This document shows positions 21,981 through 29,092 of a stretch of DNA of 64,000 bases, in pieces. A model generated the notes under the pieces. That model was not told the origin of the DNA and searched no databases. It was given only the letters and a program-made list of their open reading frames with translations. Source of the DNA: Hyphococcus sp. GTDB lineage: Bacteria; Pseudomonadota; Alphaproteobacteria; Caulobacterales; Parvularculaceae. The stretch lies in contig JANQON010000017.1 of NCBI GenBank assembly GCA_028289605.1, positions 1-64,000 on the forward strand, read 5' to 3'. A program made the translations under genes and the position numbers. Each line of letters starts with the position of its first letter. The first letter of the stretch is position 1.

Positions 21981-24713
21981 ATGAATCACGTGACGACAAA
22001 AAAAGAGACCATTGCCGAACGTCGGCCGAAAAAGACAAACAGCGGCGAGGCTCAGAAAAGCGCGCCGCTGACGCCGATGATGGCGCAGTTCTTTGCGATA
22101 AAGCAAGAGGCAGGCGATGCTCTTTTGTTCTATCGCATGGGTGATTTTTACGAGCTTTTCTTCGACGACGCGATCGTCGCGGCTGGCGCGCTCGACATTA
22201 CGTTGACGAAACGCGGGCAGCATGCCGGCGACGACATCCCGATGTGCGGCGTTCCCTTTCACGCCTACGAAGCCTATCTCGCGAAACTGATCAAAGCTGG
22301 ATTCAAAGTCGCGATATGCGAACAGATGGAAGACCCCGCCGAAGCGAAGAAGCGGGGATCGAAGTCGGTCGTCCGGCGCGAAATCGTGCGCGTGGTGACC
22401 CCGGGCACGATCATCGAAGACGCGTTGCTCGATGCGCGGGCGAATAACTTCCTGGCGAGTCTCGCCGTTTTGCGCGGCGGCGATGAGGCCGCGCTTGCAT
22501 GGATCGATGTGTCGACAGGCGAAGTTTCGGTTCGTCGCGTATCCCCGGAAAACGCTGCGGCGGCGCTCGCCGCAATCTCTCCGAAAGAATTGATCGTCCC
22601 GCAATTGGATGAGTGCGCGCCTTGGCGGCCGGTAATTGATGCGGGCGCAGGCCTTGTCACGCCGTTCCCGCCGGAACAGTTTGATTCCGCGGCGGGGCGG
22701 CGTCGCATGTTATCGGCCTATAACGTCGCATCCCTAGACGCGTTCGGCGACTTTGACAGAGCAGAGTGTTCAGCGCTTGGTGCGCTCTTGGGGTATGTCG
22801 AGCTCACCCAGGCTGGGCGCATGCCGGCCATATATCCGCCTCGAAAGATGGATATCGCCGGTGCGATGGCGATCGATGCGGCGACCCACGCGTCGTTGGA
22901 GCTGACGAAAACGCAAAGCGGCGCCCGAAAGGGTTCCCTGTTGTGGGCGGTCGACCGAACGGTCACCGGTCCGGGCGCGCGGCTTCTGGCGCGGCGCATG
23001 GCTGCGCCATTGACCGATGCGGCGGCGATCAATGGTCGTCTTGATGCGGTTCAGTATTTTGAGCGCGCTGCGGATATGCGCGGCGCCGTGCGGCGGACCC
23101 TGAAAACGACGCCTGACATCGCCCGCGCGCTATCGCGGCTGTCGCTGGGGAGGGGCGGCCCGCGCGACCTCGTCGCCATTCGCGACGGGTTGGCCGCCGG
23201 CCGCGAAATAGCATCGGCGATGGCGGCGAACCGCCTTGCGTCGGCGCCGCCCTTGCTCGCGGACGCCTTGCAGGCGATCGAGAACAGCGACGGGGTCGGA
23301 TTCTCCGATCTCATGACGGAACTCAGCGCGGCGCTCGGTGAAAACCCGCCCTTGCTGGCGCGAGACGGCGGGTTTATCGCCAAAGGATATGACCCCGGTC
23401 TCGACGCGACCATTGCGTTGCGTGATGAATCCCGCCGCGTCGTGGCAGGTCTTGAAGCGAAATACCGCGCGCTCGTTTCCGTTAAATCGCTCAAGGTCAA
23501 ACACAACAATGTGCTCGGATATTTTGTTGAGGCGCCGCCGTCTCATGGCGACGCGCTCACGTCGCCGCCGCATGACGAGACATTTATCCATCGCCAGACC
23601 CTCGCCAGCGCTGTTCGATTTACTACCGGCGAGCTCGCCGAGCTGGACGCAAAAATCGCGCGCGCCCGAGACGAAGCGCTCGCCCGAGAACTTGACCTCT
23701 TCCAGAGCCTTGTCGATCGCGTCATGGATCGACGCAAATCCCTGGCGGAGGCCGCCGCAGGACTCGCCGCAATCGACGTGGCCGCTGCTCTTGGCGAGCT
23801 GGCGGTCGACGAGAACTTCGTCCGACCCCTGATCGACGATTCCCTGTCGTTCGATCTCTCGGCGGCGCGCCATCCCGTGGTCGAGCGTGCGTTGCGCGCG
23901 GGCGATGGTGATGCGTTCATTCCCAATGACTGTGTGTTGTCCCTAGAGAACGAGGCGCGCCTGTGGCTCGTCACGGGGCCGAATATGGCCGGCAAATCTA
24001 CGTTCTTGCGTCAGAATGCGCTTGTCGCCATTCTCGCTCAGTCAGGGTCGTACGTGCCGGCGTCGCGCGCGCATATTGGAATTATCGATCGTGTTTTCTC
24101 CAGGGTCGGCGCCGCGGACGATCTTGCACGGGGCCGATCCACATTTATGGTTGAGATGGTTGAGACGGCGGCGATTCTTAATCAGGCTACGGAAAAATCT
24201 CTTGTCATTCTTGACGAGATCGGTCGCGGCACATCGACGTTCGATGGGTTATCGATCGCCTGGGCCGCCGTTGAGCACCTCCACGACCAGGTGCGTTGCA
24301 GAGGACTTTTTGCAACGCATTACCACGAACTTACCGATCTCTCGGAGCAATTGCCGCGGCTCCTGAACATGTCCATGAAAGTTCGCGAATGGAAAGGCGA
24401 TATCGTTTTTCTTCATGAAATCGGCGCCGGGGCCGCCGATCAGTCCTATGGCGTTGCGGTCGCGAAGCTCGCCGGGCTGCCGGCCAGTGTCGTCAAGCGC
24501 GCCCAGGCGTTGCTGCGTGAATTGGAAGCGCGCGGCGACGGGGACGGCGTCGCCGGTCTGCCGTTATTCGCAACAGCGACCGCGTCGCCGGTCGATCCGC
24601 CAGTCACTTCTGCGGTGGAGGATGAAATCGCCGCCATAGAACCGGATGCGTTGACGCCGAAGCAGGCTTTGGAAACGCTTTACCGCCTCAAAGGGCTGCT
24701 CGATGAGCAATAG
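21981..24713 (+). CDS. mutS: DNA mismatch repair protein MutS
   Basis: A 910-aa mismatch-recognition ATPase. The N-terminal mismatch-binding domain has [15 protein letters not shown], with the mispair-contacting Phe-x-Glu. The connector, lever and clamp domains follow. The ATPase has the Walker [15 protein letters not shown] (about residues 666-678), the Walker [17 protein letters not shown] and the ATHYHEL motif. It works with MutL to start repair of replication errors. Followed 15 nt later by glnD, an order conserved in alphaproteobacteria. Confidence 0.98.
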
Positions 24714-24728
24714 CGCAAACCGGCCGGC

Positions 24729-27446
24729 GTGAGCAGCCGCGCCAAGACCGCCGGCGATGCGACCGCCTTTGACGCCAACGCGTTCAGAGAATCGCTTGAG
24801 CAAGCCTTCGCCGCCGAGCTGGCGGGCCGCCGGCACGGCGCGGTCAGCGCGGTGATGCGCCGCGCGGCGTCTGACGCCAGGTTGAGCGCATTTCAGTATG
24901 GCGACCGCGGCGACAAAATCGCGCTTCAGCTTTCCCGGGCCGTGGATGCGATGACGGGCGGCCTGTTTCAGTCGATGCCGAGAGACGGCGTCGCTTTCGC
25001 ATTGTGCGCTGTCGGAGGCTATGGCCGCAAAGAGCTTGCGCCCTTTTCTGATGTCGACCTTTTGTTTCTTCACGAGCCTGCAAGCGATGCGGTGGTGCGC
25101 CGGGCGCTCGATTTCATTCTCTATCCGATGTGGGATAGCGGGATGAAGATTGGTCACGGCGTCCACACGCCCAAAAGCGCCGCCACGTTCGCCAAAGAAG
25201 ACATGGTGGCGCGTACGTCTTTTCTTGACGCGCGTCTGGTCGCCGGATCGCGGTCATTGTTTGAGGCCTTCAAAACAGATTTTGACAAGTTAAGACGGCG
25301 CACGGGCGCGGACTTTGTCGCCGCCAAACTCCGCGAGCAGGATGAGCGCCAGCGCGCCGCCGGCGCCACGCGCTATCTTGTCGAGCCCAATATCAAGGAG
25401 GGTAAGGGAGGGCTTCGCGATGTGCAGACAATTCGCTGGATTTACAAATACGTATACGGTGGATCGATTGGCGAGAGTGTGGAAATAGACAAAATTCTCG
25501 GCGAGAAGAATGTTCGTGAACTCGTCAAGGCAGAGCGATTCCTTTGGTCGGTGCGCGCGCATCTTCACGACTTGAGGGGGCGGGCGGATGAGCATCTCAC
25601 TTTTGATATTCAGCCTTTGGTTGCTGAGCGTCTCGGATACGCCGATCGACGAGAAATGGCCGCGGCCGAGAGGCTGATGCGGCACTACTTTGTGACCGCG
25701 GTGGACACCGGTCGGCTGACGCGCGTTCTCTGCGCCCGGCTGGAAGAGGAAAGCGCGAAACGATTGCCGCGGTTGCCGCGTTTGCTTCCGAAGGCTCTGC
25801 AACGGGACGAGGCAACGGGCGCTCCTAATGTCCGTATACGCAATGGGAGACTTGATTTTGCGAGCGCTGCGCGCGCGGCGAAACGACCCCGTGACTTCTT
25901 TCGGCTTTTTCGCGCCTTCTCGAAAAGCGTGAAACTGGATTTTCATCCGGACGCGCTCGCGCTGGTGGCGGAGAACGTCGCCGCGGTGACGTCTGAAGTC
26001 CGCAAGGACGCCGAGACAGCCTTGTTGTTTAAAGGCATTCTGGAAAGCAATGAGCATCCTGAGCGTACGCTGCGCCTGATGACGGAGACGGGATTGCTGG
26101 GAAAATATGTTCCCGCTTTCGGTTCCATTGTCGGGCGCATCCACTACAGCCTGTACCGGCGGTTTACGCTTGATGAACAAGTCCTGCGCACGATTGGCGT
26201 TCTTCGCGACATTCGCATGGGGCGGCTGAAAAACGAGCATCCGATATCGACGCGCATCGTCAAGGCTGCAGAAAACCCGTACATTATTACTCTTGGCCTG
26301 TTTCTCCATGAGTCCGTATGGACGGTGAAAGGCAAGTCTGCCGCTGAATGTGAGAAGTTGATTGTCCGCATCGCCAAGCGCCTCGGCCTGAGCAGTGACG
26401 AGGCGCGACTTACGGCCTGGGGCGCCGCCAATTTTCTGCTTCTCGTTCGCACGGCTGAACGCCGAAACCTGACGGAAGCGCACGCTATTGCGCACTTTGC
26501 GGCGAAGGTGGGCGGACAGGACCGCCTTGATCTGATGCTCGTTCTGTCAACCTGCCACTTGCGGATTGTCGGTCCCGCCGCGTGGGACGAAGTCATCCGG
26601 CGTCAGCTCACGGAGCTTTATGACGGAGCGTCAGCCTGGTTCTCCGGGGGAATGGTTGCCCTGGAAAACCGGCTCGCCGATCGTGCGTCGGCGGCCCGCG
26701 CCGACGCCCATGAGCGTCTAGCGGATTCGCTGGATGCGGAGCCAAGCCGGTTCTTAAACCAGCTAACGGACGATATGCTGCGCTCTCTTGATACGGACAT
26801 TATCGTCCGGTTTGCACATCTGGCGCAGGCGGCCGAGCAGGACGCGGAGGCTGCGGCGGTGACGGTGACGCCGCGGGATGGGGATTTTGAGTGCATCGTG
26901 CGCGCGGAAGACCGGGCGGGTCTTCTCGCCGATATTGCCGGCGCGATCGCCGGCGCTGGTCTCAGCGTGCGATCCGTTCAGGCGCTAACGACTGCTGACG
27001 GCCGCGCTTTTGATGTCTTCTCCGTGCAATCCGCTGACGGATTGACGGCTGAGGACCCTGAGCTCGCGCAAAGCCTTCGCCAAAAAATCCTCGATGCGGC
27101 GTCGGGGCCGTTGAAGAAGCAGCCGAACTTAAAGCGGCGATTGGGCGACCGCCGAACGATTTTTAGTGTTGAACCTGAAGTGCGCATTGAGCGGGAAGCA
27201 TCGATTGACGCCGCGGTTGTGGAGGCGGAGGGTCTGGACAGGCCGGGCCTGCTTTATGAAATGGCGTCCGCGCTCGGTCGCATCGGGGTTTCCATCGCGT
27301 CCGCCCATGTTGCAACCTATGGCGAACGAGCGGTGGACGCGTTTTATCTTACGGACGCCGACGGGCGCAAAATTAGTGATTCGAAAACGCTGGGGCGCAT
27401 AGAACGGGCGCTTCTAGACGTGCTCGCCTCTGGCTCCGGCGCGTAA
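24729..27446 (+). CDS. glnD: PII uridylyltransferase GlnD with a degenerate HD domain
   Basis: A 905-aa nitrogen-status sensor that uridylylates PII (GlnB/GlnK) when glutamine is low. The nucleotidyltransferase domain is intact: GGYGRKELAPFSDVDLLFL. Two C-terminal ACT domains (CIVRAEDRAGLLADIAG and VVEAEGLDRPGLLYEM) bind glutamine. The middle HD domain, which normally removes UMP, has lost its metal ligands: the usual YTVDEH is FTLDEQ, LFHDIAKGRGGDHS is replaced by LFLHESVWTVKGKSA (His527-Glu528), and later His and Asp positions are Asn568 and His610. GTG start at 24729. Uridylyl removal is probably lost (inference). Confidence 0.93.
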   Translation: MSSRAKTAGDATAFDANAFRESLEQAFAAELAGRRHGAVSAVMRRAASDARLSAFQYGDRGDKIALQLSRAVDAMTGGLFQSMPRDGVAFALCAVGGYGRKELAPFSDVDLLFLHEPASDAVVRRALDFILYPMWDSGMKIGHGVHTPKSAATFAKEDMVARTSFLDARLVAGSRSLFEAFKTDFDKLRRRTGADFVAAKLREQDERQRAAGATRYLVEPNIKEGKGGLRDVQTIRWIYKYVYGGSIGESVEIDKILGEKNVRELVKAERFLWSVRAHLHDLRGRADEHLTFDIQPLVAERLGYADRREMAAAERLMRHYFVTAVDTGRLTRVLCARLEEESAKRLPRLPRLLPKALQRDEATGAPNVRIRNGRLDFASAARAAKRPRDFFRLFRAFSKSVKLDFHPDALALVAENVAAVTSEVRKDAETALLFKGILESNEHPERTLRLMTETGLLGKYVPAFGSIVGRIHYSLYRRFTLDEQVLRTIGVLRDIRMGRLKNEHPISTRIVKAAENPYIITLGLFLHESVWTVKGKSAAECEKLIVRIAKRLGLSSDEARLTAWGAANFLLLVRTAERRNLTEAHAIAHFAAKVGGQDRLDLMLVLSTCHLRIVGPAAWDEVIRRQLTELYDGASAWFSGGMVALENRLADRASAARADAHERLADSLDAEPSRFLNQLTDDMLRSLDTDIIVRFAHLAQAAEQDAEAAAVTVTPRDGDFECIVRAEDRAGLLADIAGAIAGAGLSVRSVQALTTADGRAFDVFSVQSADGLTAEDPELAQSLRQKILDAASGPLKKQPNLKRRLGDRRTIFSVEPEVRIEREASIDAAVVEAEGLDRPGLLYEMASALGRIGVSIASAHVATYGERAVDAFYLTDADGRKISDSKTLGRIERALLDVLASGSGA

Positions 27447-27499
27447 ACAGCCCTAAGCCGGCGTATTCGCGCGGAGTGTATTTTGGAGCAGAGCGGTCC

Positions 27500-29092
27500 A
27501 TGAGCGGCGGCATCGTGAAATCGCTGGCGACGGTAAGCGGCATGACCATGCTGAGTCGCGTGCTCGGCTTCGTGCGCCAGATATTGATCGCCGGCGTGAT
27601 CGGCGCCGGCGGCAACCCGGTGGCGGACGCGTTCTGGGCGGCCTTCCGTCTGCCGAACATGTTTCGTCGGCTCTTCGCAGAGGGCGCGTTTCACGCGGCG
27701 TTCGTTCCCATGTTTCAGGGGCGGCGCGTCGAAGGCGGCGATCCGGCCGCGAAGGCGTTTGCGGAAGAGGTGTTGGCCGGTCTTGTTTTTATTTTGACCC
27801 TGCTGACGGCGTTGGTCGAATTGGCGGCGCCGTTATTCGTCTACCTCGTCGCGTCCGGATTCGCGAACGATCCGGAAAAGTTCGAACTGACGACGCTCTA
27901 TTCGCGGATCATGTTCCCGTATTTGATGATGATGTCCCTGGTCGGACTCCTAAGCGGCGTTCTAAACTCGCTTGGCCGCTTCGCCGCCTCCGCCGGGGCG
28001 CCGCTGGCGCTCAATATTTGCCTCATCGTCGGGGTTGCGGCTTTCGCTGACGCTGAAACGGAAATCACCGGCATGGCCGCCGCATGGGCGGTTTTCGCCG
28101 GCGGTCTCATCCAGTTGGTTGTATTGCTGATCGGCGCATGGCGGCAGGGATATCTTCCTCGGCTGCGGCTGCCGCGGCTCACGAAAAGCATGAAGCGACT
28201 CTTTGTGCTTGGCGCGCCTGGCTTTATCAGCGCCGGCGCCGTTCAGATCAACCTGATTGTCGGCACCAACATCGCCAGTCAGCAACCGGGCGCGGTGTCC
28301 TGGCTGATGAACGCCGACCAGTTGTATCAGTTACCGCTCGCCGTCATTGGAATCGCCCTCGGTGTTGTGTTGCTTCCGATGCTGTCGCGCCGCGTAAAGG
28401 AAGGCGATGAGGAAGGCGCGGCCCGCGCCATCAATCGGTCGCTTGAGCTTGCAGCGCTCTTATCCTTTCCCGCGGCCGCCGCCTTTATGGTCATGGGTTC
28501 GCCGATATGCGACGCGCTGTTTCGGGGGCTCGCCAGCGACGCGCTGTCTCTTTTCGGCGGCCGCCAATCGGCGTTCACCGCCAACGATGTCGCCATGACC
28601 GGCGCCGCCCTCGCCATCTTCGGCGCCGGCCTGCCCGCTTTCGTCTGGCACAAGATCTTCTCGCCGGCGTTTTTCGCACGAGAAGATACGCGCACGCCGA
28701 TGAACTACGCGCTGGTCTCGATTGGTCTGAATATTGTGCTCGCCCTGTCGCTGTTTCCGGTCTTTGGATTTTTATCTGTCGCCGTCTCCACCGTGGCTGC
28801 GGCATGGGTCCAGGTCGCGCTGCTGGCCCAGAGGCTCTACCGCAACCGGCACTTCCAGCCCGGCGGACGGCTGGCCGGGCGCATCGCGCGCATCGCGCTC
28901 GCCAGCATCGGCCTTGCCGTGTTTTTGCACATCGCGCTTGGCTATACCGAACCTATCGCTGCGGTTTTCGCAAACCGGGAATGGATTGCGGTCGTCGCCA
29001 TCGCCTTTGCAGGCCTTGGCGCTTATGGGGTTCTGGCGCTCGCGCTTGGCGCCGCAAAACTCTCCGACTACAAGACGCTCGCCGGCGTGTGA
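27500..29092 (+). CDS. murJ: Lipid II flippase MurJ
   Basis: A 530-aa MOP-superfamily membrane protein with about 14 helices. The N-terminus (SGGIVKSLATVSGMTMLSRV, then GFVRQILIAGVIGAG) is characteristic of MurJ/MviN, as are NMFRRLFAEGAFHAAFVPMF and the central ALGVVLLPMLSR. It moves lipid-linked peptidoglycan precursor to the periplasmic face. ATG 27500 is preferred to an upstream TTG-type extension. It lies between glnD and trpS, the usual alphaproteobacterial order. Confidence 0.95.
   Translation: MSGGIVKSLATVSGMTMLSRVLGFVRQILIAGVIGAGGNPVADAFWAAFRLPNMFRRLFAEGAFHAAFVPMFQGRRVEGGDPAAKAFAEEVLAGLVFILTLLTALVELAAPLFVYLVASGFANDPEKFELTTLYSRIMFPYLMMMSLVGLLSGVLNSLGRFAASAGAPLALNICLIVGVAAFADAETEITGMAAAWAVFAGGLIQLVVLLIGAWRQGYLPRLRLPRLTKSMKRLFVLGAPGFISAGAVQINLIVGTNIASQQPGAVSWLMNADQLYQLPLAVIGIALGVVLLPMLSRRVKEGDEEGAARAINRSLELAALLSFPAAAAFMVMGSPICDALFRGLASDALSLFGGRQSAFTANDVAMTGAALAIFGAGLPAFVWHKIFSPAFFAREDTRTPMNYALVSIGLNIVLALSLFPVFGFLSVAVSTVAAAWVQVALLAQRLYRNRHFQPGGRLAGRIARIALASIGLAVFLHIALGYTEPIAAVFANREWIAVVAIAFAGLGAYGVLALALGAAKLSDYKTLAGV

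Follow-up and report, generated by a model that had tools for sequence, protein, structure and literature searches.

The glnD gene analysed here lies in a 64,000-nucleotide stretch of Hyphococcus sp. DNA (assembly GCA_028289605.1, contig JANQON010000017.1, positions 1 to 64,000 of the forward strand; hereafter the window). Its product lacks the residues of the HD-domain site that removes uridine monophosphate (UMP) from the signal protein PII. Sequence comparison strongly supports a loss of this site across the whole family Parvularculaceae, and not a quirk of a single gene. In characterised GlnDs, as described in PMC4285133 and PMC3480911, UMP is added by the nucleotidyltransferase (NT) domain and removed by the HD domain, and the two activities are separate. 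A uridylyltransferase (UTase) devoid of uridylyl-removing (UR) activity is the most straightforward interpretation of a protein that keeps the NT site and has lost the HD site. We put a probability of roughly 60% on the reading that, in the ancestor of Parvularculaceae, GlnD turned into a monofunctional PII uridylyltransferase that is regulated by glutamine and acts one way, with an HD domain that would be structural or regulatory.

The HD site of GlnD is substituted in the window and across the family

The window GlnD was aligned with Escherichia coli GlnD (NP_414709.1, L257), with intact GlnDs of the same order and with members of its own family, and all positions are numbered as in the window GlnD. 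The family (code f1) was taken as Parvularculaceae. These are mostly marine bacteria. Among 80 whole genomes of relatives a GlnD match was found in 75; 48 of the 80 belong to the same family, and 43 of these have a match. The family alignment contained the GlnDs of 42 of the 43 (the window and L010-L050). The outside-family alignment had 118 rows: 8 same-order, 9 further of the order and 101 class-wide, the last without G000 and G049. A phylum set of 61 GlnDs, including that of E. coli, was chosen across families and classes from 191 matching genomes; rows L258-L262, L269 and L273 were dropped because their genomes had been counted already, and L279 was checked separately and is intact. The scored HD site comprised H477, H484, H527-D528, H569 and D610. 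The gene and its parts are as follows.

24729..27446, forward strand: glnD, 905 amino acids plus stop, GTG start; the sole GlnD match in its own genome
25014..25070, forward strand: nucleotidyltransferase signature GGYGRKELAPFSDVDLLFL, amino acids 96-114, with G96, G97, G99, S107, D108 and D110
25314..25730, forward strand: PF08335 GlnD_UR_UTase region including E219 and D231, amino acids 196-334, 130.4 bits
26049..26648, forward strand: degenerate HD (UMP-removing) domain, amino acids 441-640, limits set in this analysis
26157..26180, forward strand: R477...Q484 (RRFTLDEQ), against H-x-YTVDEH of intact enzymes
26307..26312, forward strand: H527-E528 instead of the HD pair
26433..26435, forward strand: F569 instead of the conserved His
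26556..26558, forward strand: H610 instead of the last Asp
26844..27113, forward strand: ACT domain 1, amino acids 706-795 as set here, PF01842 at 723-778; D728 in 42 of 42 family rows
27171..27437, forward strand: ACT domain 2, amino acids 815-903 as set here, PF01842 (two stretches); R838, G840 and L841 in 42 of 42 family rows

When aligned to E. coli GlnD and the intact relatives, the window site reads R477, Q484, H527-E528, F569 and H610, with LHES against LHD, AANFLLL at the segment of the conserved His, and CHLR against ADI. Position 477 is Arg in all 42 family rows and His in all 118 rows outside. At position 528, Asp in 118/118 outside rows, the family has Glu (39) or Gln (3), and position 610, Asp in 117/118 outside, is His in 32 family rows, Arg in 7, Tyr in 2 and Asn in 1. 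The other sites are more mixed within the family. His484 (118/118 outside, Gln in the window) is kept in 30/42 family rows, position 569 (Phe in the window, His in 116/118 outside) is His in 22/42, and position 527 is His in 31, Gln in 8 and Arg in 3. Moreover, Lys531, found in 118/118 outside rows, has become Trp in 34/42 family rows.

A preliminary description of this gene had assigned Arg477 and Gln484 to the two His positions, His527-Glu528 to the HD pair and His610 to the last Asp, and the alignments bear out all three assignments. Its placing of the next His at Asn568 was wrong, however: the conserved His aligns with Phe569, and column 568 is variable even in intact enzymes. The same description had listed the loss of a K-G-R-G-G-D-H-S block. 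The block is indeed absent from the window GlnD, but its conservation is incomplete in intact enzymes of the order too, and several of them read KG-x-GDQ there. Displacement of the metal ligands to other residues was also checked by alignment and was rejected, as the family HD domain holds no alternative conserved set of His, Asp or Glu. The nearly fixed positions E453, D482, E483 and H504 are common outside the family too, leaving E528, D620 and C609 as the only ones typical of the family.

Asp528 or Asp610 was kept in none of the 43 GlnD-bearing family genomes (the 42 aligned and G024, whose gene is split), which represent all eight GlnD-bearing genera sampled. Among the 119 homologues listed, which are partly the same proteins as the 42 rows and some of which are named as Hyphococcus species, R477 was present in every one, and neither Asp was present in any. 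Class-wide and outside the family, the equivalents of His484, His527-Asp528, His569 and Asp610 were all present in 116/118 rows, the exceptions being L170, which has Gln and Asn at the two last positions, and L222, which has Gln in place of His569. All five sites were present in 61/61 GlnDs of the phylum set, so that the class and phylum sets together gave 177 of 179 GlnDs with the whole site kept. Among the papers listed on GlnD, PII deuridylylation and Parvularculaceae, titles and abstract openings described no natural GlnD with a dead HD domain, which is no proof of absence. L170 (G168, same class) is a very divergent GlnD, perhaps with an independent partial HD loss.

A sequencing error or pseudogene in the window was ruled out by the occurrence of the same state in 43 family genomes and by low ratios of nonsynonymous to synonymous substitution rates (dN/dS) in close pairs. 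This agrees with the open frame and normal flanks pointed out in the preliminary description, which had seen no sign of a pseudogene. The GlnD of G024 (L326, same genus) is split mid-gene into two overlapping frames and has the same dead state (Arg477, His-Glu, His610); the split is an assembly fault or a true frameshift. G034 gave two GlnD matches, the second being a fragment identical to the first at 552/571 positions, with the same dead HD domain.

The HD domain is retained under constraint

In a tree built without the HD columns, the 42 family rows lay on one side of a branch with a Shimodaira-Hasegawa-like approximate likelihood ratio test (SH-aLRT) support of 100. One loss therefore fits, and the data are consistent with a site lost once, in the family ancestor. 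HD identity was 0.61 among 17 order outgroup rows and 0.38 among 16 rows of other family genera; the corresponding values for the NT domain were 0.51 and 0.44. The dN/dS of the HD domain ranged from 0.024 to 0.097 in nine family pairs. A predicted-structure model had a predicted local distance difference test score (pLDDT) of 88.8, and the HD fold is tentatively predicted to be intact. The family HD domain thus appears, by its sequence, to be a conserved pseudo-domain under purifying selection.

The NT site and the acceptor tyrosine of PII are kept

G96, G97, G99, S107, D108, D110, E219 and D231, which we take to be the catalytic residues of GlnD, were invariant in 42/42 family rows. Two C-terminal ACT domains were present in the window GlnD, with PF01842 matches in two stretches and ACT folds in the predicted structure. 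An intact nucleotidyltransferase motif and two intact ACT domains had been claimed before, and both claims hold.

We were also interested in the substrate. The UMP acceptor is Tyr51 of PII, according to PMC4285133. Of the 43 family genomes with GlnD, 26 supplied the 30 PIIs examined, and position 51 was Tyr in all 30, as it was in 14/14 PIIs examined from order outgroups. In the own genome of the window, GlnB (L074) and a GlnK-like PII (L089) both have Tyr51; two weaker PF00543 matches, L090 and L091, did not align. On the other hand, the three sampled genomes of genus g4 (G030, G038, G043) had PII and GlnE and no GlnD match, and their PIIs (L104, L105, L106) have Leu at position 51 in 3/3. 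In G030 a different gene stands upstream of murJ at the place of the window's glnD. murJ was not found in G038 and G043, so these assemblies may have gaps, but the Tyr51Leu change speaks for a real GlnD loss in g4. Tyr51 kept alongside GlnD, and Leu in the GlnD-less g4, support live uridylylation where GlnD remains. In all, four family genomes that are at least 89% complete (G028, G030, G038, G043) had no GlnD match.

The glnD gene and its neighbours

The window GlnD matched TIGR01693 over its whole length with 658.6 bits, above the cut-off of 519.4. It scored 757.1 bits with NF003467 (PRK05092), presumably the alphaproteobacterial GlnD model, under the cut-off of 959. The Pfam search gave PF08335 and two ACT stretches and no HD domain match, and a search of solved structures by sequence gave no match at E 0.001. 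A second GlnD-like gene, which the preliminary description had suggested looking for, did not turn up in the own genome. The neighbours of glnD, with their presumed names, are listed below.

21981..24713, forward strand: mutS-like open reading frame, upstream neighbour of glnD
27476..29092, forward strand: murJ-like open reading frame, downstream neighbour of glnD; part of it served as anchor for the locus comparison

Compared with the bifunctional UTase/UR GlnD of E. coli and other proteobacteria (TIGR01693/PF08335), the window protein has the same length and order (NT, GlnD_UR_UTase, HD, ACT, ACT), shares the NT catalytic residues and passes the TIGR01693 cut-off. It differs in lacking the HD metal-site residues and in falling below the narrower NF003467 cut-off.

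The rest of the nitrogen circuit

GlnE in the own genome carries both nucleotidyltransferase motifs. The GlnK-like PII gene adjoins an AmtB-like gene and gltBD-like genes, as we presume them to be from their sequences. Beside glnB lies a gene of 227 amino acids (L074:1836-2516), and a search of 30 PII loci showed relatives of it at eight others. It has no Pfam match, and an early guess of a 2-oxoglutarate oxygenase was dropped for that reason.

None of the 48 family genomes matched outgroup NtrB at 163 bits or more, and 24 of the 32 outgroup genomes did; three family genomes gave NtrB matches of 76-83 bits, scores like those of the second, weaker matches that outgroup genomes show. TIGR01818 (NtrC) matched all 80 genomes, with 1 above the cut-off. 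As this model was too general, the comparison relied on NtrB and on gene order, with genes named by motif and BLAST. In the order outgroups, NtrB and NtrC lie between a dusB-like gene and ntrY-ntrX (L252) or adjoin ntrY-ntrX (L253). At four family loci (L247, L248, L249, L254) ntrY-ntrX comes immediately after the dusB-like gene, with ntrB-ntrC missing, and at a fifth (L250) no NtrB was found ahead of ntrY. G055 (family f5) also has no NtrBC at its dusB-ntrYX locus (L251) and has an intact HD site (L055), indicating that NtrBC loss is insufficient for loss of the HD site. As the sole cause NtrBC loss was rejected, since the HD site was kept in 4/4 aligned GlnDs from NtrB-less outgroup genomes.

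Some family members lack parts of the cascade. G028 (genus g2, 99% complete, about 3.0 Mb) gave no GlnD, PII or GlnE match, and its whole PII cascade seems to be missing. G029 and G037 (genus g3) seem to lack GlnE, with one weak PF03710 match each, and keep GlnD and PII; the third g3 genome, G042, has GlnE matches.

Alternative explanations

Several observations weigh against a one-way GlnD with a dead HD site. Because His527, His484 and His569 persist in many family members, a residual HD site is conceivable; yet these residues never occur with Asp528 or Asp610. The non-HD columns also give the family a long stem branch (0.55), which means that change affected the whole protein and not the HD domain alone. 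GlnE, the reader of PII-UMP versus PII, keeps both nucleotidyltransferase motifs, and a receiver that makes use of both PII states is an argument for a reverse route of some kind. Tyr51 is weakened as a general marker by GlnD-less genomes outside the family: 20 were searched (20 further such genomes were left out), PII was found in 3 of them, and 3 of the 4 PIIs keep Tyr51. Tyr51 is likewise kept in G007 (L083; 84% complete), where GlnD and murJ were both not found. Finally, NtrB is missing in 8/32 outgroup genomes. The HD site is intact in all 4 of these with an aligned GlnD, and NtrB loss is thus not enough by itself to account for the HD loss.

A different enzyme, such as a phosphodiesterase, a phosphatase or another HD protein, could remove UMP from PII in a two-protein reversible cycle, as with RelA and SpoT. 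The conserved GlnE motifs and PII Tyr51 fit such a two-state signal, and PMC8012599 describes RelA as having an inactive hydrolase domain while SpoT hydrolyses. We nevertheless consider a separate eraser unlikely, because the genome has no second GlnD-like gene and no candidate turned up, though new hydrolases were not searched for systematically. The preliminary description had proposed that PII uridylylation is either one-way or reversed by another enzyme. The loss of the UMP-removing site behind this proposal is strongly supported and the pair of alternatives was the right one, but sequence cannot decide between them. Hydrolysis of PII-UMP by the HD domain through rearranged ligands (such as His484, Glu528, His569 and His610) is improbable. 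Glu528 is present in 39/42 rows, and His527, His484, His569 and His610 in many family members, but they form no conserved set: positions 484 and 569 are Gln and Phe in the window GlnD, position 527 is Gln in 8 rows and Arg in 3, position 610 is Arg in 7, and Lys531 is mostly replaced by Trp. The NT domain might itself reverse the reaction by phosphorolysis or pyrophosphorolysis, like the deadenylylating domain of GlnE. This seems very improbable, as the NT domain of the family shows nothing in its sequence to suggest it, and the catalytic residues are as in ordinary GlnDs. Lastly, the whole GlnD could be non-catalytic or a relict, with PII modification abandoned in the family. The four nearly complete family genomes with no GlnD match, the long stem branch and the split gene of G024 (possibly an assembly fault) would fit. 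The chance of this is slighter still in view of the NT catalytic residues in 42/42 rows, Tyr51 in 30/30 PIIs that occur with GlnD and in 0/3 of g4, and dN/dS far below 1.

Proposed mechanism and significance

If GlnD is a one-way uridylyltransferase, then at low glutamine the NT domain would put UMP on Tyr51 of GlnB and GlnK, and at high glutamine the ACT domains would stop further uridylylation, leaving the existing UMP in place. PII-UMP would then be cleared through growth dilution and turnover. Fast control would come from direct binding of 2-oxoglutarate, ATP and ADP by PII, which is argued in PMC4285133 to be sufficient for several targets. Placed between the NT and ACT domains, the dead HD domain may serve as a scaffold or allosteric element, a role that the pseudo-hydrolase domain plays for the synthetase in RelA. 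In its fullest form, this reading would have the family run PII uridylylation as a one-way, growth-reset memory of nitrogen limitation, with a UTase carrying a regulatory pseudo-HD domain as the writer and with NtrB also lost; we hold this version tentatively, at somewhat less than even odds.

E. coli RelA, as presented in PMC8012599, is a (p)ppGpp (guanosine penta- or tetraphosphate) synthetase with an inactive but conserved pseudo-hydrolase HD domain that modulates its partner domain. It resembles the family GlnD in deriving from a synthesis-plus-hydrolysis ancestor and in having an HD domain that is catalytically dead yet conserved. The analogy is one of working only, as protein and substrate differ, and E. 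coli has SpoT for hydrolysis, whereas the search for a second GlnD gave none. Actinobacterial GlnD adenylylates GlnK (PMC4285133); it likewise modifies Tyr51, but its reaction is adenylylation. Corynebacterium glutamicum offers an example in which PII may be reset by turnover, its GlnK being regulated by modification, membrane sequestration and proteolysis according to a 2004 paper cited in PMC3612183.

PMC4285133 states that the role of PII modification needs re-evaluation. A natural family that has the writer but not the known eraser, set beside relatives with both and close kin with neither, lends itself to comparison. An enzyme other than GlnD that removes UMP in Parvularculaceae would be a new PII-UMP hydrolase; if no eraser exists, PII uridylylation can serve as a slow one-way mark.
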